Shown here: positions 3,534 through 62,500 of the stretch, one piece after another
How positions within the stretch are numbered: position 1 is the stretch's first letter
How the letters are laid out: every line of letters starts with the position of its first letter
Assembly (NCBI RefSeq): GCF_009858175.1
Contig: NZ_CP047393.1
Location: 1,550,001-1,614,000 of the forward strand
Reading direction: 5' to 3'
Source: Pontibacillus sp. HMF3514
Lineage (GTDB): Bacteria; Bacillota; Bacilli; Bacillales; BH030062
DNA length: 64,000 nucleotides
Program-made: the position numbers and the translations under genes
The notes under the pieces: model-generated
Databases searched by the model: none
Seen by the model: the letters and a program-made list of their open reading frames with translations, nothing else
Told to the model about the DNA's origin: nothing

Positions 3534-4265
3534 TTCAACTATATGGCAGTTATGTTGAATAAGCTGGTGCGGGGGGGGGTTCCGTTGCTATTGTGGAGTG
3601 CGGTGGGCTTGGGAACGGGTTGCTTTCCCCGGACGAACGATCGAGCCTCCTCATCCGCTACGCTTCTTGCGGGGTCTCGCTCGCCCGTTTTTCCGGAGGA
3701 GTCAACCCGCTCCCAAGCCCACCTTAGCCGAATGGTGATTAACGGAACCGCAGCGATAAGAGGAGGTAATGCTTACGGACATTTGATCCGCTATTTCACC
3801 TTAAAATGGTTTTTCTAAAGAGCTTACGGACATTCATTCCGCTAATTGCTACAAATCACCTTAATAAAGAGCAATCTGTCATAAATAAGGTACCATATGT
3901 CCGTAACGACTCTCGAAATGCCTTAAAAGTTCAAAATAACGGAACAGATGTCCGTAAGGTTTAGAACTCACACACTAGGGTCCGTTATTCTCCATAAACG
4001 CAAAGGGGGGAAGGAAACGGCAAACTCCAGTGGTAGAAAGTGCAGATGAGACCCCACAGAGAACGTAGTGAACGAGGAGGCTGAAAGTAAATAATGAAGA
4101 TCGACTAAGACCGCCACATCGTGTGGCAACGTCGACCTACCCCACGTCGTGTGGGGCAGCAGGAGTATTGCCGTTTCACTGACCCCCTTACTCTCATACA
4201 AGCAACGGACTCCTCCGAACCTATATCTCGATTCCAAGTCTTCAAGATAAGGGGGCTATTATGGA
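3534..4265 (+). repeat. Composite intergenic repeat element, copy A
   Basis: About 730 bases closely matching copies B and D and the reverse complement of C. It runs from the TATATGGCAG end to the AAGGGGGCT end. It contains the left GC-rich hairpin module (about 3580-3760), the centre with four ACGGACAT-type motifs (3770-3960), and the right module (about 4000-4260). A roughly 50-base insert with palindromes CCACATCGTGTGG and CCCCACGTCGTGTGGGG sits in the right module. One arm base of the 20-bp left stem differs from the other copies. It lies between the yvrJ and signal peptidase terminators. Open frames inside it are not credible genes. Confidence 0.9.
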
Positions 4266-17361: not shown

Positions 17362-17382
17362 AATGTTTAGAAAAAATTGTTA

Positions 17383-18057
17383 TTCAATTATATGGCAGTT
17401 ATGTGGAATAACTGTTTTAGTGAGAGAGGCGGTTCCGTTGCTATTGTGGAGTGCGGTGGGCTTGGGAACGGGTTGCTTTCCCCGGACGAACGATCGAGCC
17501 TCCTCATACGCTACGCTTCTTGCGGGGTCTCGCTCGCCCGTTATTCCGGAGGAGTCAACCCGTTCCCAAGCCCACCTTAGCCGAATGGTGATGAACGGAA
17601 CCGCAGCGATATGAGGAGGTAATGCTTACGGACATTTGATCCGCTATTTCACCTTAAAATGGTTTTTCTAAAGAGCTTACGGACATTCATTCCGCTAATT
17701 GCTACAAATCACCTTATTAAAGAGCAATCTGTCACAAATAAGGTACCATATGTCCGTAACGACTCTCGAAATGCCTTAAAAGTTCAAAATAACGGAACAG
17801 ATGTCCGTAAGGTTTAGAACTCACACACTAGGTTTCCGTTATTCTCCATAAACGCAAAGGGGGGGAAGGAAACGGCAAACTCCAGTGGTAGAAAGGGCAG
17901 ATGAGACCCCACAGAGAACGGAGTGAACGAGGAGGCTCAGCTGGTCTTCCACAGGAGTATTGCCGTTTCACTGACCCCCTTACTCTCATACAAGCAACGG
18001 ACTCCTCCGAACCTATATCTCGAATCCAAGTCTTCCAGATAAGGGGGCTTTAATGGA
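17383..18057 (+). repeat. Composite intergenic repeat element, copy B
   Basis: About 675 bases. The left module has a perfect 11-bp outer stem (GCGGTTCCGTT with AACGGAACCGC) and a perfect 20-bp inner stem (GTGGGCTTGGGAACGGGTTG with its complement). The centre has two forward and two reverse ACGGACAT-type motifs. The right module has a stem AACGGCAAACTCC with GGAGTATTGCCGTT and lacks the insert seen in A and D. Its ends are TATATGGCAG and AAGGGGGCTTTAATGG. It lies between the fadH and hemolysin III terminators. Confidence 0.9.
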
Positions 18058-33172: not shown

Positions 33173-33437
33173 TTGTTTTCCATAAATGATCTGAGATATA
33201 CCTCTAAACAACCCAACCTTCCCCCTTAAAAGAGGTTCTAAGCTCACTTCCAATTCCACCATTGTTTTCTAATTTGGTGACGTTTTTTTGACACATTTTC
33301 ATGAAATCGGTCTCAATAAAACATGATCTGATATGATGATCAAACATGCGAGACCAATAGAACATGGTATGTGATTGACTGAACAATCCAGTGAACTTTG
33401 TACTTAAAAATATTAACATCTAGGTAGGTGACCTCAT

Positions 33438-34322
33438 ATGAGAATTTTTAAAGCATTCGTGCTAGCAAGTTTTTTGCTAGTCTTTCTTAGTGGGTGTAGC
33501 GCATTGCCTGTCTTGGATCCTAAGGGTCCGGTTGGTGAGGCGCAGAAGGACTTAATTTTCTGGTCCATTGCGCTCATGTTATTTATTGTTGCAGTTGTAT
33601 TTGCGCTATTTACATTCATGGTAGTTCGTTACAGAGAGCGACCTGGTTACGAAACACATGAACCAGAAGAGATGGAAGGAAACACATGGTTAGAATTGCT
33701 TTGGACAGGAGTTCCCGTCATCATTGTTGTACTTCTTGCTGTACCGACTGTAAATACGATTTATCAATTAGAAGAACCACCAAGTAGCACGAAAGAAAAG
33801 GAGCCTCTTGTCATTCATGCTACTTCTGCAGATTGGAAATGGTTCTTTAGTTATCCTGAACAAGGTATAGAGACGGTAAACTATTTGCATATTCCAGAAG
33901 ATCGACCAATTCTTTTTAAACTTACTTCAGCTGATTCCATGGCTGCTCTATGGATTCCTCGTTTAGGTGGACAGGAATACAATATGAATGGCATGCGTAC
34001 TGAACTATTTTTACAAGCTGATGAGCCAGGCGTATATAATGGTCGTAATGCAAACTTCACAGGTAGAGGCTTTACGGAGCAGACGTTTAAGGTTTATGCA
34101 CAAAAACCTGAGGAGTTCCAACAGTGGGTTGATAAAACCCTAGAAAAAGCACCTAAGCTAACAAAAGATAAATATGATCATATGCTACTTCCTGGTCATG
34201 TCGAACGACAAACGTTCTCTTCAACGCATTTACAATATGTTGATCACGCAAAAAATGCGGAATACACAGTAAACGTTCGAGAACGCTTGGGCTATGACCC
34301 TGAAGAGGAAAGCTCACATTAA
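33438..34322 (+). CDS. qoxA: Cytochrome aa3 quinol oxidase subunit II
   Basis: A 294-residue lipoprotein subunit of a haem-copper quinol oxidase. It has a lipobox (LSGC at about 17-20), two membrane helices (about 40-65 and 85-105) and an extracellular cupredoxin domain. The CuA ligands (CxxxC and His) expected in cytochrome c oxidase are absent; the corresponding stretch reads GGQEYNMNGMRTEL. That marks a quinol oxidase. It heads a four-gene qoxABCD operon with 3 to 18 base gaps. The start is ATG after TAGGTAGGTG. Confidence 0.94.
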   Translation: MRIFKAFVLASFLLVFLSGCSALPVLDPKGPVGEAQKDLIFWSIALMLFIVAVVFALFTFMVVRYRERPGYETHEPEEMEGNTWLELLWTGVPVIIVVLLAVPTVNTIYQLEEPPSSTKEKEPLVIHATSADWKWFFSYPEQGIETVNYLHIPEDRPILFKLTSADSMAALWIPRLGGQEYNMNGMRTELFLQADEPGVYNGRNANFTGRGFTEQTFKVYAQKPEEFQQWVDKTLEKAPKLTKDKYDHMLLPGHVERQTFSSTHLQYVDHAKNAEYTVNVRERLGYDPEEESSH

Positions 34323-34340
34323 GATTGGAGGCGGACAGAA

Positions 34341-36293
34341 TTGAAACTAGATGAATTTTTTGTCACCGGTGATCCGTTAATCTATGGAGCTGATGTGTCT
34401 ATCATCCTATCCATGATTGGAATTGTCTTCGTTTTAACGAAATATAAAAAATGGGGATGGCTCTGGAAAGAATGGCTCACGACAGTTGACCATAAAAAAT
34501 TAGGCATTATGTACATCCTTTCAGCTGTACTTATGCTATTTCGAGGCGGAGTTGATGCACTTTTAATGCGTGCACAGCTAACCATGCCTGAAGCTGAATT
34601 TTTGGACTCCACACACTACAATGAAATTTTTACAACGCACGGAACTATCATGATTATTTTCATGGCTATGCCATTCTTAATTGGCCTTATGAACGTGGTT
34701 GTACCCTTACAAATTGGAGCAAGAGACGTTGCTTATCCATTCTTGAATGCCGTCAGCTTTTGGACATTCTTCATGGGTGCCATGCTCTTTAATATATCCT
34801 TCGTTATCGGAGGCTCACCTGAAGCGGGGTGGACATCTTACGTACCGCTAGCAGGAAATGAGCTAAGTCCTGGACCAGGGCAAAACTATTACTTACTCGG
34901 TCTACAGGTGGCCGGAATTGGTACGTTATTAACGGGGATAAACTTCCTTGTTACGATTTTAAAAATGCGTGCACCTGGTATGACATTGATGCGTATGCCG
35001 ATGTTCACGTGGTCGAGTGCGATTACATGTATTATTATTATTTTCGCATTCCCCGTCTTAACTGTAGCGCTAGCGCTTATGACACTTGACCGTATTTTTG
35101 AAACACATTTCTTCACAATGGTGGATGGCGGAATGCCGATGCTTTGGGCGAACTTGTTCTGGTTATGGGGTCACCCTGAAGTGTATATCGTTATCCTACC
35201 TGCCTTTGGTATTTTCTCAGAGGTTATCTCAACGTTTTCACGAAAAAATCTATTTGGTTATAAAGCTATGGTTTATTCCATGGTTATCATTGCAGCACTA
35301 AGTTTCGTTGTATGGGTACATCACTTCTTTACCATGGGTGCTGATGCAAGTGTAAACTCATTCTTCTCTGTTACAACAATGGCGATATCCATACCAACGG
35401 GTGTTAAAGTCTTTAACTGGCTCTTTACTATGTATAAAGGGCGGATCAAGATTAACACAGCCATGCTTTGGTCATTAGCCTTTATTCCGAACTTTGTTAT
35501 CGGTGGTGTAACAGGGGTTATGCTTGCTATGGCAGCAGCTGACTATCAGTATCACAATACCTACTTCCTTGTAGCACACTTCCACTATGTGTTGATCTCT
35601 GGAACGGTATTTGCTTGTTTCTCAGGATTGTATTACTGGTATCCTAAACTATTTAATCACAAATTAAATGAGAGATTAGGAAAGTGGAGTTTTTGGTTAT
35701 TCATGATCGGATTCAACGTATGTTTCTTCCCTATGTATTTCTTAGGGTTCGCAGGTATGCCACGTCGTGTTCACACATACGCAGAAGGATCTGGATGGTT
35801 CGAACTGAACGCAGTTGCTTCAGTCGGTGGCGTCATGATGGGAATCGGCTTTGTTATTCTAGTTTATAATATCTATTACTCTATTCGTTACGAGCCTAGA
35901 TTGACAACAGGCGATCCATGGGATGCACGTAACCTAGAATGGGCAACACCTTCACCAGTTCCGTACTACAACTTTGCAAAAATTCCTGAGGTTCGTGGAC
36001 TAGATGAATTCTGGCGTATGAAGCAAGAGGGTAAGAAAGACCTTGATCTTAAGAAAGACAAGCTTGAACCAATTCATATGCCTGACTACTCAGGAGTTCC
36101 TGTTATTATGTCTACATTTTTATTTATCTCAGGTTTCGGTCTTGTATTTGAATGGATGTGGATGGGGATTGCTGGTGCTATAGGCGTTGTCATTACGATG
36201 ATTATGCGTTCCTTTGATCCTGATGAAGGCTATCATGTTGAAGTAGAAGAGATAAAAGAAATTGAAGAAAATGTTCGTAGAGAGGAGGCGTAA
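34341..36293 (+). CDS. qoxB: Cytochrome aa3 quinol oxidase subunit I
   Basis: A 650-residue catalytic subunit with about 14-15 membrane helices. It reduces oxygen to water with electrons from menaquinol and pumps protons. Haem and CuB ligands are visible: His in TTHGTIMI (low-spin haem), the [11 protein letters not shown] motif with the cross-linked His-Tyr pair, the HH pair in [10 protein letters not shown], and the HFHYVL His ligands. The start is TTG after GGAGGCGG, 18 bases past qoxA. Confidence 0.95.
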
Positions 36294-36296
36294 GAC

Positions 36297-36908
36297 ATGG
36301 GACACACAGAAGCAATTGATCCAAACAAACCATTAGAATATCAAACCGAAAAAAGTCGATTAAACATTCTAGGTTTCTGGATTTTCCTTGGAGCTGAGGT
36401 AGCACTTTTTGCGACATTATTTGCTACGTATTTTGTTCTGACCGGTAGACTTGCAGATGGACCAGGTCCTGGTGAGTTATTTGAAATCAAAGGTGTTTTG
36501 ATTGAGACGTTTATCCTTTTAACAAGTAGTTTCACGTGTGGAATTGCAATTCATGAAATGAGAAGAGGAAGTAAGAAAGGATTAATGATCTGGTTCGGCC
36601 TTACGCTTCTTCTCGGGTTAGGCTTTCTTTACTTTGAGATAGAAGAGTTTATCCACTATGTACATGAGGGTGCTACAATCCAAACAAGTGCATTTTGGTC
36701 TAGTTTCTTTACTTTACTAGGGACGCACGGTGCACACGTGTCACTTGGTATCGGGTGGATGATTATGATTTTGATTCAAGTTGCACGTCATGGTTTAAAT
36801 ACTACAACAACAAGAAAAGCCTTTATCATTTCCCTATATTGGCACTTCCTTGATGTTGTCTGGATCTTTATCTTCACAGGCGTGTATTTAATGGGGATGG
36901 TGATGTAA
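36297..36908 (+). CDS. qoxC: Cytochrome aa3 quinol oxidase subunit III
   Basis: A 203-residue subunit with five membrane helices, characteristic of the shorter quinol-oxidase form of subunit III. The conserved LGFWIFLGAEVALFATLFATY and GTHGAHVSLGIGWM stretches are present. It stabilises proton pumping by subunit I. It begins 3 bases after qoxB and ends 1 base before qoxD, so the genes are translationally close. The start is ATG after GAGAGGAGG. Confidence 0.95.
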   Translation: MGHTEAIDPNKPLEYQTEKSRLNILGFWIFLGAEVALFATLFATYFVLTGRLADGPGPGELFEIKGVLIETFILLTSSFTCGIAIHEMRRGSKKGLMIWFGLTLLLGLGFLYFEIEEFIHYVHEGATIQTSAFWSSFFTLLGTHGAHVSLGIGWMIMILIQVARHGLNTTTTRKAFIISLYWHFLDVVWIFIFTGVYLMGMVM

Positions 36909-36909
36909 T

Positions 36910-37215
36910 ATGGCAGGAAACAGTCACAATAAATTTCCGTGGAATCACGTTTTAGGATTTATTTTTTCGATTGTTTTAACGTTAATCGCTGTGTGGGCAG
37001 CTTTATATTCAAGCCTATCTTTAACAGCTATCGTATGGACAATCGTTACCTTGGCACTTCTTCAAGCTGCTGTACAATTATTTATGTTCATGCACATTGG
37101 AGAAGGAGAAGGAAAAGCACAAAAAGGTACGATTTATTTCAGTGCTTTCATCGCTGTTGTAATCGTAGCTGGATCCATTTGGGTTATGAACGCGATGATG
37201 CATTCTATGATGTAA
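36910..37215 (+). CDS. qoxD: Cytochrome aa3 quinol oxidase subunit IV
   Basis: A 101-residue small subunit with three membrane helices (about 15-35, 45-65 and 77-97) and the typical Bacillus QoxD sequence NKFPWNHVLGFIFSIVLT and FMFMHIGEGEG. It closes the qox operon and is followed by a strong terminator and then repeat copy C. Confidence 0.93.
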   Translation: MAGNSHNKFPWNHVLGFIFSIVLTLIAVWAALYSSLSLTAIVWTIVTLALLQAAVQLFMFMHIGEGEGKAQKGTIYFSAFIAVVIVAGSIWVMNAMMHSMM

Positions 37216-37273: not shown

Positions 37274-37930
37274 CATTAAAGCCACCTTATCTGGAAGACT
37301 TGGAATCGAGATAATGTGCGTATGGTTCCGTTGCTTTTGTGAGAGTTAGGGGTTCAGTGAAACGGCAATACTCCTGCGGAAGACCAGCTGAGCCTCCTCG
37401 TTCACTACGTTCTCTGTGGGGTCGCATCTGCCCTTTCTACCGCGGGAGTTTGCCGTTTCCCTCACCCCTTTGCTTTTATGGAGATTAACGGACCCTAGTT
37501 ACTTGAGATCTAAACGTTACGGACATCGGTTCCGTTATTTTGAACTTTTAAGGCATTTCGAGAGTCGTTACGGACATATGGTACCTTATTTATGACAAAT
37601 TGGGCTTTTTCAATGTGATTTGATGCAAATAACGGAATAAATGTCCGTAAGAAAGTCATTTTAAGGTCAAATAACGGAACAATTGTCCGCAAGCATTTCC
37701 TCACATTATCGCTGCGGTTCCGTTAATCACCATTCGGCTAAGGTGGGCTTGGGAACGGGTTGACTCCTCCGGGAAAACGGGCGAGCGAGACCCCGCAAGA
37801 AGCGTAGCGGATGAGGAGGCTCGATCGTTCGTCCGGGGAAAGCAACCCGTTCCCAAGCCCACCGTACTCCACAATAGCAACGGAACCGCCTCTCTCACTA
37901 AAACAGTTATTCCACATAACTGCCATATAA
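37274..37930 (-). repeat. Composite intergenic repeat element, copy C (inverted)
   Basis: About 657 bases in the orientation opposite to A, B and D. Its AAGG(T)GGCTTTAATG end is at the left and its TATATGGCAG end at the right. It keeps the perfect 20-bp inner stem of the GC-rich module (37742-37862 region) and ACGGACAT-type motifs in the centre. Its right-end module is shorter and more diverged than in the other copies. It lies between the qox terminator and the terminator of the convergent small membrane protein gene. Confidence 0.88.
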
Positions 37931-38026
37931 AGGAATAAAAACATACTCTCTTCATTGGCAGTGTGTTGATTATAAAAGGCAATAATTCATCACAATCATA
38001 ATCCTGATATCTCCATAATAAAAATA

Positions 38027-38065: not shown

Positions 38066-38359
38066 TTATGAAGTTCGACTAACAGCTTTAGACATATCAT
38101 CTAATTTTCCACGCATTTTTGAATCATTGACTAAACCAACAACCAGACCTGCATGTGCATAAAGAATGTTTATGACAAGTAGGGAGAGTGATAGTCCGTA
38201 TATGATTGGGTGCACAGTTAAGGCTCCGATTTCAATAATCAAAAAGCTCCACATTCCTACGATAAGTGGCAGTTGAATGATCGCCATTTTTCGGTATTCA
38301 ATCCATAGAAATAGTGGGGTGAATGTTGCAAAAAGCGCATAAACCATCAATACATCCAT
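38066..38359 (-). CDS. Small membrane protein of unknown function
   Basis: A 97-residue protein with three predicted membrane segments (about 3-22, 27-45 and 52-75) and a basic cytoplasmic tail (DSKMRGKLDDMSKAVSR). The ATG at 38359 follows AAGGAG at 8 bases; a GTG three codons upstream overlaps that site. It is divergent from the bd-type oxidase genes, and the shared upstream region carries TTGTGA repeats. It may be linked to respiration, but no family is recognised. Confidence 0.65.
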   Translation of the reverse strand: MDVLMVYALFATFTPLFLWIEYRKMAIIQLPLIVGMWSFLIIEIGALTVHPIIYGLSLSLLVINILYAHAGLVVGLVNDSKMRGKLDDMSKAVSRTS

Positions 38360-38529
38360 ATCAAACACTCCTTAATGTTTGTGACAAAATTGTGAACATT
38401 TCTTAATCCCTACTATACCAGTATCGATTAACAATGAAAACCCTTACATAAAAATTTTGTTAATAATTGAAAGTACAAAAGGCTTGTTCAAAGATTCATA
38501 GGTTCGTATACTCGAAGTACAGAAAAAGT

Positions 38530-38547
38530 TTGTGAAGTATGTCACAA
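38530..38547. promoter_or_regulatory. Candidate Rex operator
   Basis: TTGTGAAGTATGTCACAA fits the Rex palindrome TTGTGAA-N4-TTCACAA with a single mismatch in the right arm. It stands 133 bases before the bd-type oxidase gene. Rex represses bd oxidase and fermentation genes when the NADH/NAD ratio is low. Extra half-sites TTGTGAC and TTGTGAA lie at about 38377-38395. Confidence 0.55.
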
Positions 38548-38679
38548 AAGTGTCATGATCTTCGGAACACAAAACAAATCACAGCGTTTATACTGTACTC
38601 ATAGTGGATATAGGAGAAAGAATGAACAATCAGATATGAAATGAATTTAACTAGATAAAAATTGAAGGGGGTTGCGGGT

Positions 38680-40035
38680 ATGATGGGATTGGATAGTGTC
38701 ATAATGAGTCGAATGTTGACCTCATTAACGCTGGCATTTCACATAATTTTCGCTACAGTCGGTGTAGGAATTCCAGTTATGGTATCCATAGCAGAATTCA
38801 TTGGAATCAAAAAGAAAGATGCCCACTACACCTTGCTAGCTCGACGCTGGACTAGAGGATTTGTCATTACTGTTGCTGTAGGTGTTGTAACGGGTACAGC
38901 AATTGGTCTGCAATTATCCTTATTATGGCCAAGCTTTATGCAGGTCGCAGGAAATGTGATCAGTTTACCTTTATTTTTAGAAACATTCGCGTTTTTCTTT
39001 GAAGCGATCTTCTTAGGCGCTTATTTATATACTTGGGACCGATTTAAAAACCCAATTTATCACTGGTTACTATCGATTCCTATTATTATTGGGTCAAGCA
39101 TGTCTGCCTTTTTCATCACAACAGTAAATGCATTTATGAATACACCACAAGGTTTTGAACTAGAGGGGCGAACGATCACATCAATTGATCCACTTGCTGC
39201 TATGTTTAACCCTGCGACGCCAACAAAAGTGTTCCATGTAATTTCATCAAGTTATTTAACTTCAGCTGCCATTCTAGCAGCGATCACAGCTTTTTATATT
39301 ATAAAGAAAAAAGCAACACCTTATCATAAGAAAGCTTTAAAACTAACGATGATGGCTACGTTCATCTTTGCTATTACTACTGCAGTAGCAGGGGACTTAT
39401 CAGCAAAATTCCTTGCTAAAGAACAACCTGAAAAACTAGCTGCTGCTGAATGGCACTTTGAAACAGAAAAGGGAGCAGACCTTATCCTCTTTGGAACATT
39501 GAATGAAGAGAATGAAGTAGAAAATGCCATTCGCATACCAAATGCATTAAGCTTTCTTGCGCATGGATCATTTGATAGTGAGGTGAAGGGCTTAGATAAA
39601 ATTGAGGAAGATGTAACACCGCCATTATGGATCCACTATATGTTTGATCTTATGGTTATGCTTGGAATGTATACTATGGGTGTGTCGTTCCTATATATTG
39701 TACTTTCCAAGTTGAAAAGGTGGAATGAAAATAATAAATGGTTACTGTGGTTAATCGTTCTCAATGGACCTTTTGCCATGCTTGCGATTGAATTTGGTTG
39801 GATCTTTGCGGAAGTTGGTCGTCAACCATGGATCCTAAGAGGTTATATGAAAGTAGCAGAAGGGGCAACCACATCTCCTCATGTGGACTGGATGTTCCTA
39901 TTGTTTCTAGGGCTATATATTTTACTAGGCGTATTTTGTGTGACTGTTCTACGTAAGTTATTCCGTCATAATCCAGTAGAGTTAGAGCTTGAACAACGTT
40001 ATCCGAACATCTCGAATAGAGGTGATGATGAATGA
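38680..40035 (+). CDS. cydA: Cytochrome bd-type quinol oxidase subunit I
   Basis: A 451-residue membrane protein with about nine helices. It carries the cytochrome bd subunit I hallmarks: the N-terminal His in TLAFHIIFATVG, the GRQPWILRGYM block after a short Q-loop, and the FLETFAFFFEAIFLGAYLY helix. The short Q-loop and sequence resemble the YthA/CIO-like branch and not classical B. subtilis CydA. The ATG at 38680 is chosen because GAAGGGGG lies 8-9 bases upstream. A Rex-like site suggests induction under low oxygen. Confidence 0.9.
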   Translation: MMGLDSVIMSRMLTSLTLAFHIIFATVGVGIPVMVSIAEFIGIKKKDAHYTLLARRWTRGFVITVAVGVVTGTAIGLQLSLLWPSFMQVAGNVISLPLFLETFAFFFEAIFLGAYLYTWDRFKNPIYHWLLSIPIIIGSSMSAFFITTVNAFMNTPQGFELEGRTITSIDPLAAMFNPATPTKVFHVISSSYLTSAAILAAITAFYIIKKKATPYHKKALKLTMMATFIFAITTAVAGDLSAKFLAKEQPEKLAAAEWHFETEKGADLILFGTLNEENEVENAIRIPNALSFLAHGSFDSEVKGLDKIEEDVTPPLWIHYMFDLMVMLGMYTMGVSFLYIVLSKLKRWNENNKWLLWLIVLNGPFAMLAIEFGWIFAEVGRQPWILRGYMKVAEGATTSPHVDWMFLLFLGLYILLGVFCVTVLRKLFRHNPVELELEQRYPNISNRGDDE

Positions 40036-41045
40036 GTTATGAATTGATCGGAATAACCGTACTATGGATTTTTCTTTATGGTTATTTAATTGTAGCGTCG
40101 ATTGATTTTGGCGCAGGCTTCTTTGCTTACTATGCTAAAATCACCAAGCAGGATCATATCATCAATAAGCTAATCTCTAGGTATCTATCACCTGTATGGG
40201 AAGTAACCAACGTGTTTTTCGTATTTTTCTTCGTAGGTTTAGTTGGGTTCTTTCCGGATGCTGCGTATTATTATGGTCAAACGCTACTGATACCAGGTAG
40301 TATAGCCATCGTGCTACTGGCGATCCGTGGTTCCTTCTATGCATTCGAAAACTATGGATCGAAAAAAAGTTCAACCTATATGTTTTTGTATGGTGCAACA
40401 GGGTTGTTAATTCCAGCTTCACTTTCAACAGCCCTCACCATTTCTGAGGGAGGCTTTATTGAAGAATCGAATGGACAGGTTCGTTTGTTAACCCAAGAGC
40501 TTCTTACAAGCCCTTATTCTTGGAGTGTAGTATTCCTGGCGATCGTTTCAGTGTTATTTATCTCAGCTGCATTTTTAACGTTTTACGCAAATCGTGCAAA
40601 TGATAAGCCAGCCTTAGAATTAATGAGGAAGTATACATTGTTCTGGAGTTCACCGACGATCATAGCTTCGTTAACAACGTTCATTGCTATGAGTCAGCAT
40701 AATCAACGTCATTTCGAAAATATGCTTGATTTATGGTGGATGTTTGGCTTGTCGGTAGCGTTTTTCTTAGGAGCTATATTCTTCATTTATCAACAGAAGC
40801 GTTTTGGTTTAGCCTTTATTATGGTGATGTTCCAGTTCTTCTTTGCCTTCTTTGGATATGGAGCAGGACATCTACCGTACTTGCTAGATCCATTCATTAC
40901 AATTGAGAGCAGTGTTGTGAACGATACAATGGGCTTGGCATTAGTTATTGCCTTTATCGCAGGACTATTCTTGTTAATTCCATCACTGATCCTTCTCATG
41001 CGTATGTTCCTGTTTGATGCGGATTATGTAAAAGGTAAGAAATAA
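40032..41045 (+). CDS. cydB: Cytochrome bd-type quinol oxidase subunit II
   Basis: A 337-residue subunit with eight or nine membrane helices. It overlaps the subunit I gene by four bases (ATGA), a sign of translational coupling. The N-terminal YLIVASIDFGAGFFAYY and the SPVWEVTNVFFVFFFVG segments are typical of CydB/AppB proteins. Subunit II stabilises the haem-bearing subunit. No cydCD assembly genes are adjacent, unlike the B. subtilis cydABCD operon; the ythAB-type pair also lacks them. Confidence 0.9.
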   Translation: MSYELIGITVLWIFLYGYLIVASIDFGAGFFAYYAKITKQDHIINKLISRYLSPVWEVTNVFFVFFFVGLVGFFPDAAYYYGQTLLIPGSIAIVLLAIRGSFYAFENYGSKKSSTYMFLYGATGLLIPASLSTALTISEGGFIEESNGQVRLLTQELLTSPYSWSVVFLAIVSVLFISAAFLTFYANRANDKPALELMRKYTLFWSSPTIIASLTTFIAMSQHNQRHFENMLDLWWMFGLSVAFFLGAIFFIYQQKRFGLAFIMVMFQFFFAFFGYGAGHLPYLLDPFITIESSVVNDTMGLALVIAFIAGLFLLIPSLILLMRMFLFDADYVKGKK

Positions 41046-58657: not shown

Positions 58658-58664
58658 TTATAAT
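58636..58664 (+). promoter_or_regulatory. Sigma-A promoter of SR1
   Basis: TTGAAT, a 17-base spacer and a perfect TATAAT; transcription should start near 58671. Confidence 0.7.
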
Positions 58665-58673
58665 TAAATTATA

Positions 58674-58689
58674 TTGAAAGCGTTATCAA
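58674..58689. promoter_or_regulatory. cre site (CcpA operator) at the SR1 start
   Basis: TTGAAAGCGTTATCAA matches the cre consensus WTGNAARCGNWWWCAW at all 16 positions. It lies from about +4 onward relative to the predicted start, where CcpA binding would block transcription. Confidence 0.7.
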
Positions 58690-58718
58690 AAAAACACTTA
58701 AAGGGAGTTGAATCAACG

Positions 58719-58841
58719 ATGGGTACAATTATTTGTCAAGACTGTCAGCGTGTGATCGAACATTTTGAAGATGAGAAGGTCTCAACTCTTTATGGAAACT
58801 GCTGCTCCAGCTGTAAAAGTAAAAACAAACATAAAGCATAA
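58719..58841 (+). CDS. sr1P: SR1P, GapA-binding peptide
   Basis: A 40-residue peptide, MGTIICQDCQRVIEHFEDEK followed by VSTLYGNCCSSCK and a Lys-rich tail. It matches the SR1P family: the N-terminal CxxC, the EKVxTLYGxC core and a second Cys pair. In B. subtilis SR1P binds glyceraldehyde-3-phosphate dehydrogenase GapA and promotes its interaction with RNase J1. rnjA is also in this window. The ribosome-binding site is AAAGGGAG, 11 bases before the ATG, somewhat long spacing. Confidence 0.85.
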   Translation: MGTIICQDCQRVIEHFEDEKVSTLYGNCCSSCKSKNKHKA

Positions 58842-58845
58842 AAGA

Positions 58846-58882
58846 AAAAGCTAACCAGCCGAGGCTGCGTTAGCTTTTTTTA
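58846..58882. terminator. Terminator of SR1, shared with speA
   Basis: AAAAGCTAAC and GTTAGCTTTT arms with an inner CAGCC/GGCTG stem and seven T. It probably also stops speA transcription from the other side. Confidence 0.9.
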
Positions 58883-61804: not shown

Positions 61805-61813
61805 ATAAGTTTT

Positions 61814-62500
61814 ATTCAGTTATATGGCAGTAATCTGGAATAACTGTTTTAGTGAGAGAGGCGGTTCCGTTGCTATTGTGGAGTGCGGTGGGCTTGGGAA
61901 CGGGTTGCTTTCCCCGGACGAACGATCGAGCCTCCTCATCCGCTACGCTTCTTGCGGGGTCTCGCTCGCCCGTTTTTCCGGAGGAGTCAACCCGTTCCCA
62001 AGCCCACCTTAGCCGAATGGTGATTAACGGAACCGCAGCGATAATGTGAGGAAATGCTTGCGGACATTTGTTCCGCTATTTCACCTTAAAATGGTTTTTC
62101 TTAAGAGTTTACGGACATTCATTCCGCTAATTGCTGCAAATCACCTTAATAAAGAGCAATCTGTCACAAATAAGGTACCATATGTCCGTAAGGTTTAGAA
62201 CTCACACACTAGAGTCCGTTATTCTCCATAAACGCAAAGGGGGGAAGGAAACGGCAAACTCCAGTGGTAGAAAGGGCAGATGAGACCCTACAGAGAACGG
62301 AGTGAACGAGGAGGCTCAAAGTAAACAAGGAAGATCGACTAAGACCGCCACATCGTGTGGCAACGTCGACCTACCCCACGTCGTGTGAGGCAACAGGAGT
62401 ATTGCCGTTTCACTGACCCCCCTTACTCTCATACAAGCAACGGACTCCTCCGAACCTATATCTCGAATCCAAGTCTTCAACATAAGGGGGCTTTAATGGA
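61814..62500 (+). repeat. Composite intergenic repeat element, copy D
   Basis: About 687 bases, same orientation as A and B. It keeps the perfect 20-bp left stem and the CCACATCGTGTGG insert, but lacks the roughly 50 bases that A and B carry between two direct ATGTCCGTAA motifs in the centre. That deletion explains most of its shorter length compared with A. It lies between the yktA and typA terminators. Confidence 0.9.

Follow-up and report, generated by a model that had tools for sequence, protein, structure and literature searches.

The cydAB genes for cytochrome bd oxidase of Pontibacillus sp. HMF3514 are preceded by an inverted repeat, TTGTGAAGTATGTCACAA, that overlaps an 11-base-pair (bp) direct repeat. 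We studied these elements in a 64,000-nucleotide (nt) stretch of the 3.98 Mb genome (C1:1550001-1614000, here called the window) and in related bacteria. The two motifs, the way they overlap, their recurrence in relatives and a usual distance to the -10 element can be read from the DNA itself. From these features we consider it reasonably probable that the cydAB palindrome is a composite operator. A ResD-type regulator would activate transcription and Rex, whose site has 7 bp in common with the ResD box, would keep that activator off. Among named relatives, Pontibacillus marinus is the closest (98% for CydA). L-numbers are our labels for loci and sequence stretches.

A conserved palindrome with unequal inner bases

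The palindrome, a putative Rex-type operator, occupies positions 38530..38547. Its halves, TTGTGAA and GTCACAA, flank GTAT and are asymmetric in their inner bases, with A at position 7 and G at position 12 (A7/G12). An earlier, sequence-only reading had reported a palindrome at exactly these coordinates, between cydAB and a divergent gene for a small membrane protein, with one mismatch to the Rex operator. The location and gene order are correct. So is the mismatch count, provided that the comparison is with TTGTGAAN4TTCACAA (G for T at position 12). There are two mismatches, at positions 8 and 12, to the Staphylococcus aureus form, TTGTGAAW4TTCACAA (PMC2883068). Of two sequence features by which we recognise a Rex operator, the site has the TTGTGA-N6-TCACAA inverted repeat; in place of the A7 and T12 pair it has A7 and G12.

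In the window, TTGTGAAGTATGTCACAA is the only match to TTGTGA-N6-TCACAA with fewer than two mismatches, and it is exact. With up to two mismatches there are 2 matches, one of them exact, against a mean of 5.67 in shuffled sequence. Hence, only the exactness of the match is notable. A matrix of Rex-type sites from elsewhere scored TTGTGAAGTATGTCACAA at 22.8 and the runner-up in the window at 5.4, a ranking that partly repeats the pattern search because the matrix was built from exact palindromes. Note that 31 of the 37 sites used for this matrix outscore TTGTGAAGTATGTCACAA.

To assess conservation, we collected loci from named genomes with a CydA query and kept the best 80 of 321. When any base was allowed at the six inner positions, the pattern [AT]TGTGA-N6-TCACA[AT] was found in the 400 nt ahead of cydA in 55 of these 80 loci. 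The sequence-only reading had named lack of conservation before orthologous cydA genes as grounds for dropping its proposal, an objection that these counts remove. A7 is present in all 55 palindromes and G12 in 54, with L032 the exception. We then aligned 56 rows, comprising the window and 55 loci (L051 replaces L032). Since the pattern used for alignment includes A7/G12, only the other columns are informative. A -10 element, picked automatically, lies exactly 41 nt past the palindrome in 40 of the 56 rows, and the intervening columns are mostly poorly conserved. In the window, the corresponding predicted -10 element is TATACT (38589..38594, plus strand), also 41 nt past the palindrome.

Of the 67 places found with TTGTGA-N6-TCACAA in 25 genomes, 23 adjoin cydA and 44 do not. 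We fetched 38 stretches around the latter and judged targets by eye from the encoded proteins. Many such palindromes precede genes such as those for L-lactate dehydrogenase, lactate permease, an NADH-oxidase-like flavoprotein or a DoxX-like protein, and some have no clear target. We describe inner pairs with the second base written as its complement, so that A7/G12 becomes A/C. On this notation, the 37 non-cyd sites counted (two of them before ldh in Pontibacillus sp. HMF3514) comprise 29 symmetric pairs (A7 with T12), 6 A/T, 1 A/G, 1 G/T and no A/C. By comparison, 54 of 55 cyd sites are A/C (Fisher p 5e-25, with no correction for relatedness). Seven of the 44 palindromes were omitted from the 37-site count. 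These are within a gene (L226), without a near gene (L233), in a nar-type cluster (L258), at a likely roxS promoter (L228), at an antiporter-like gene (L240) and, for the last two, in a nitrate-type cluster of our genome and of genome G009. Across all 44, A7/G12 is found twice (L228, L240). We conclude that, on these counts, the cyd palindrome differs from an ordinary Rex operator in a fixed way.

Separately, TTGTGA-N6-TCACAA precedes a gene for a small membrane protein, presumably DoxX-like, in several genera (L224, L227, L229, L232, L237, L241, L243-L245, L252 and L255). This gene is a possible Rex target.

The palindrome overlaps an 11-bp direct repeat

The second motif, TGACACTTTTGTGAC (38541..38555, minus strand), is an 11-bp direct repeat of the form TGAC-N7-TGAC. 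It shares positions 38541-38547 with the palindrome. Response regulators of the PhoB/OmpR type bind direct repeats with this layout. Read on the coding strand, the repeat is GTCA-N7-KTCA, and it is carried by 8 of the 25 cydA loci that have no palindrome; 100 shuffles gave at most 2. Spacings of 0-6 and 8-14 nt gave no match in the same 25 loci, spacings of 15-18 nt gave 1-2, and the opposite strand gave none. In four of the eight loci (L059, L064, L077 and L100) the repeat starts 48 nt before the -10 element, equal to the distance from GTCA at 38541 to TATACT at 38589 in the window. Hence, the right half of the palindrome doubles as the first half of the 11-bp repeat at 38541-38555. The second half, KTCA at positions 23-26, is found in 46 of 55 palindromic loci. 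We explain the A7/G12 departure by this overlap, since the G belongs to the direct repeat.

We next asked how tightly the two motifs are coupled. When the 80 upstream regions were searched with GTCA-N7-KTCA as the sole criterion, 54 loci yielded 56 repeats. In 45 of these repeats, CAA at positions 16-18 accompanies the left half (TTGTGAA, 6 or 7 bases matching); 9 repeats lack both, and each occurs alone once. Conversely, when only the left half, [AT]TGTGAA, was required, 53 of 60 had GTCACAA at positions 12-18. These selections avoid the TCACA stretch, so the link between CAA and the left half is not circular. That the outer bases are kept or lost together suggests that they act as one dimer site, laid over a repeat that also occurs alone.

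This coupling bears on whether ResD could act without Rex, the palindrome being an inverted ResD half-site (TTGTGAA) beside the ResD direct repeat. TTGTGAA does resemble half of a ResD-type box, G12 suits ResD and not the Rex consensus, and 10 of the 56 repeats lack the left half. Against this, coupling of the left half with the CAA end (2 mixed cases in 56) is as expected for a two-fold symmetric site with Rex geometry, and L063 and L065 retain the palindrome with the ResD-type box elsewhere. Moreover, the Rex regulon of Bacillus subtilis is said to include cydA (PMC5419742). In Listeria, cydABCD is in a table of Rex-regulated genes, with a value for cydA of 13.99, which we read as a fold change (PMC8389512). 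We regard ResD acting alone as unlikely.

The direct repeat resembles elements at other respiratory promoters

The name ResD-type box derives from roxS (RsaE, RF01820). ResDE is reported to activate this gene in B. subtilis, where a conserved element near -65 has been likened to a validated ResD site (PMC4409812). Rex represses the same gene and binds in gel shifts (PMC5419742). One candidate description of the box, KTCACAAAANNKTCA, was abandoned. It has 4 matches in our genome, of which only the cyd one is in an upstream region of the sought kind; the other 3 fall within reading frames or at their borders. We therefore rebuilt the box from roxS, qoxA and ctaA.

At an E-value of 0.001, roxS was matched in 27 of 37 genomes, and TGAM-N7-TGAM lies 60-67 nt before the RNA start in 25 of the 27. 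The same arrangement is the peak spacing upstream of qoxA in relatives (14 of 24 loci, other spacings 0-5; a 25th locus, at a contig edge, was omitted). It is also the peak spacing upstream of ctaA (13 of 22, others 0-4; the 22 come from 30 family loci, 8 weak or partial ones being omitted). Across 850 kb of cydA-locus sequence outside upstream regions, TGAM-N7-TGAM was not raised.

We built a matrix from the 25 roxS boxes, which had been picked by TGAM-N7-TGAM and come from other species only. Applied to both strands of the window, this ranks the cyd box first and a box at 38382-38396, discussed below, second (22.7 bits each); the third scores 14.5. Within 260 nt before cydA, 51 of 55 palindromic loci have their best box on the minus strand and at one shared offset in the palindrome. 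Scores of at least 12 bits occur in 34 of 55 palindromic loci, 5 of 25 other cydA loci and 0 of 374 background stretches. Hence, the cyd element is a roxS-like 11-bp repeat of a kind shared with other respiratory promoters in relatives.

These results also bear on the proposal of the sequence-only reading, a plain Rex operator to which the direct repeat is incidental. Part of that proposal stands. The site is conserved, it is the sole strong Rex-type match in the window, Rex is encoded in nearly all genomes (see below), and in L063 and L065 the palindrome exists without the overlap. What does not fit a plain site is A7/G12, near-constant at cyd and found in 2 of 44 palindromes elsewhere, together with a direct repeat that is also found where there is no palindrome and that takes first place with a matrix from another promoter. 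In addition, the palindrome is centred at about -62 relative to the predicted cydA transcription start, a position from which a repressor does not directly block RNA polymerase. A plain Rex operator is, we think, improbable.

Several observations weigh against the composite operator. The loci are related, so the counts are not independent. The palindrome is missing from 25 of 80 cydA loci, of which 17 also lack GTCA-N7-KTCA, and 9 of 55 palindromic loci have no KTCA at positions 23-26. The palindromes of L063 and L065 retain G12 even though the best ResD-type box there is 33 bp further upstream; hence, G12 need not stem from the overlap. The cyd box is oriented, relative to its promoter, opposite to the roxS, qoxA and ctaA boxes. 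The qoxA repeat of our genome scores weakly (rank 12), and near ctaA the sole N7 repeat in this genome is about 435 nt upstream. Matches to roxS exceed the Rfam cut-off in just 16 of 37 genomes, and our genome has none. Furthermore, the roxS anchor was taken from published text rather than from an alignment figure. Finally, changes at position 7 weaken Rex binding in S. aureus; confirmed sites there do include mismatches at position 7, mostly with lower affinity (PMC2883068).

Candidate regulators

Rex is encoded in Pontibacillus sp. HMF3514, and its DNA-binding domain was detected in 44 of the 45 related genomes that we searched; all 29 palindrome-bearing genomes are among the 44. L070, the sole genome without a detectable Rex domain, also has no cyd palindrome; this is a single draft genome. 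For ResD, our genome holds resA-resB-resC-resD-resE. ResB was identified by PF05140, and we take its neighbours, read from L198, to be the other four genes.

The palindrome also matches the Fnr consensus, TGTGA-N6-TCACA, and a Crp/Fnr-family protein could occupy a class-I-like position near -62. Our genome encodes four Crp/Fnr-type regulators and has 12 places with TGTGA-N6-TCACA, compared to 3 for a reversed control pattern. Five of the 12 adjoin two Crp/Fnr-type genes at 3584-3602 kb. The outer T/A pair, near-constant at cyd, is missing in 4 of these 5. Furthermore, a search of the 29 palindrome-bearing genomes with our own Fnr-like protein (E-value 0.001) gave no match in 6, at most 30% identity in 8 and at least 42% in 15; many of these genomes are drafts, in which genes may be missed. 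Thus, an Fnr-like protein was not found wherever the site is conserved, and we rejected Fnr as the conserved binder on genome content. With Rex in 29 of 29 genomes and the Fnr-like protein unmatched in 6 of 29, Rex is the better candidate for the palindrome. We consider an Fnr site very improbable.

The five sites of the Crp/Fnr-adjacent cluster are at L018 6153-6168, 6710-6725 and 15810-15825, and at L019 422-437 and 4971-4986. They lie among genes that we take to be of a nitrate or nitric oxide respiratory type, and possibly mark an Fnr/Dnr-type regulon.

Promoters and the divergent ywcE-like gene

To the right of the palindrome are cydA (38680..40035, plus strand; PF01654, 445.6 bits) and cydB (40032..41045, plus strand; PF02322, 147.3 bits), encoding subunits I and II of cytochrome bd oxidase. 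To the left is a minus-strand gene (38066..38359) for a YwcE-like small membrane protein of 97 amino acids (Pfam YwcE PF17368, 51.8 bits, cut-off 25). Its most likely start, read from the sequence, is ATG at 38359; the list of open reading frames begins it at GTG 38368. Beyond lies a haem-copper oxidase operon (33438..37215, plus strand), which we take from its proteins to be qoxABCD-like, with Pfam COX3 and COX4_pro in two scanned proteins. The repeat upstream of this operon is TGACGTTTTTTTGAC (33278..33292, plus strand; rank 12, 9.95 bits).

For cydAB, the sequence suggests a weak -35 element, AACACA (38566..38571, plus strand), 17 nt from the -10 element. This promoter was absent from the promoter-scan output for the window. 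The divergent gene has a predicted extended -10 element, TATAGT preceded by TG (38412..38417, minus strand), identified by the promoter scan and conservation, which pairs with a predicted -35 element, TTTTCA (38435-38440, minus strand). Note that the scan found 3 promoter-like sites where 4.1 were expected and, taken alone, is weak evidence. We also considered one Fnr-type site serving both genes, at -41 and -62. This was dropped, as the divergent gene has its own conserved promoter at 38412-38440.

The second-ranked ResD-type box, TGACAAAATTGTGAA (38382..38396, plus strand; 22.7 bits), belongs to the leader of the divergent gene and spans about +10 to +24 relative to the transcription start predicted for ywcE. 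It is conserved in L028 and L031 (P. yanchengensis), directly after the conserved extended -10 element. The sequence-only reading had noted TTGTGA half-sites in this leader. They exist, at 38379-38384 and 38390-38395, but are better described as a second ResD-type direct repeat (rank 2 by the roxS matrix) than as Rex half-sites. Given its placement just past the predicted start, binding to the TGACAAAATTGTGAA box would more likely repress the ywcE-like gene.

Using tblastn, we found a ywcE match beside cydA in 2 of 80 loci, L028 and L031; upstream sequence is shorter than 1 kb in 4 of the 80, and a diverged copy could be missed. Because this neighbour is so rarely present, the palindrome itself serves cydAB. 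Joint redox control of both genes had also been suggested. For Rex, this is not supported; at most, ResD may control both.

Other features of the window

A dispersed repeat of about 300 bp has copies at 3540-3834, 17377-17687, 37640-37945 and 61810-62103 (89-96% like the 37640 copy). More copies, some shorter, are in stretches L018, L021 and L025 of the same genome, and the repeat gives rise to spurious short open reading frames. The Rfam Bacillaceae-1 RNA has two matches, at 4089-4155 and 62323-62389. Each follows a copy of the dispersed repeat at a distance of 200-260 bases, a pairing that may exceed chance. A match to the SR1 small RNA family is at 58663-58879 (62.4 bits).

Comparison with known systems

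In B. subtilis, going by the titles of papers by Puri-Taneja (2007) and Schau (2004), Rex (YdiH) is reportedly a direct negative regulator, and ResD a positive regulator, of the cytochrome bd genes. Likeness to B. subtilis cydABCD is thus in the regulator pair that these titles name. For roxS, the parallels are ResD activation via an element near -65 and repression by Rex (PMC4409812, PMC5419742), with the 11-bp repeat 60-67 nt upstream in 25 of 27 relatives. The roxS promoter differs in that its reported Rex site is immediately downstream of the transcription start, apart from the ResD element, whereas the sites overlap at cydAB. One Pontibacillus gene, likely roxS, has overlapping Rex- and ResD-type sites too. 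In the S. aureus srrAB promoter, Rex and ResD/SrrA sites are also reported to overlap, and the authors suggest that interference could result (PMC8593685). There, a regulator gene controls itself, in an arrangement described as recent in S. aureus; here, an oxidase promoter is involved and the arrangement is conserved. Similarly, at Bacillus cereus ldhA, a Rex motif is reported to overlap ResD and Fnr motifs (PMC4162614). This is another gene. In the literature searched, we found no report of a conserved Rex/ResD composite at cydAB, which is weak evidence, with ResD/CcpA work on B. subtilis cyd outside the coverage.

The likely roxS promoter of Pontibacillus litoralis (the L034 genome) carries a composite of palindrome and ResD-type box (L228 1501-1518, L287). 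Its RNA match is below the Rfam cut-off, and two mismatches fall in the right half of the Rex-type site at the RNA start.

A model for two-input control of cydAB

We infer the identity of the binding proteins, their mutual exclusion and the sign of each effect as follows. A ResD-type regulator bound at 38541-38555, just upstream of the weak -35 element, would activate cydAB at low oxygen or with nitric oxide. When NADH is low, Rex would occupy 38530-38547, the right half of which is the upstream half of the ResD box, and so keep ResD off. As NADH rises, Rex would leave the palindrome. Expression of cydAB would then be full only if both signals agree. Note that Rex at about -62 would be poorly placed to block RNA polymerase and well placed to exclude an activator.

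More tentatively, this may extend to many Bacillaceae, a generalisation that we think possible but would not yet call probable. Here, cydAB would have a 26-bp two-input element, at which Rex is an anti-activator that excludes ResD rather than RNA polymerase, with the shared half-site fixing A7/G12. In Pontibacillus, ResD would raise cydAB and lower the ywcE-like gene, the latter because the second box sits right after the predicted transcription start of that gene.

The composite reading provides a testable account, at the level of DNA, of how an NADH sensor and a response regulator for oxygen and nitric oxide are read jointly at an oxidase promoter. It would also explain why a ‘wrong’ base in a Rex-like site has been kept over a long evolutionary distance. 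The 11-bp-repeat description of the ResD box may, in turn, be used to find ResD targets in Bacillaceae.
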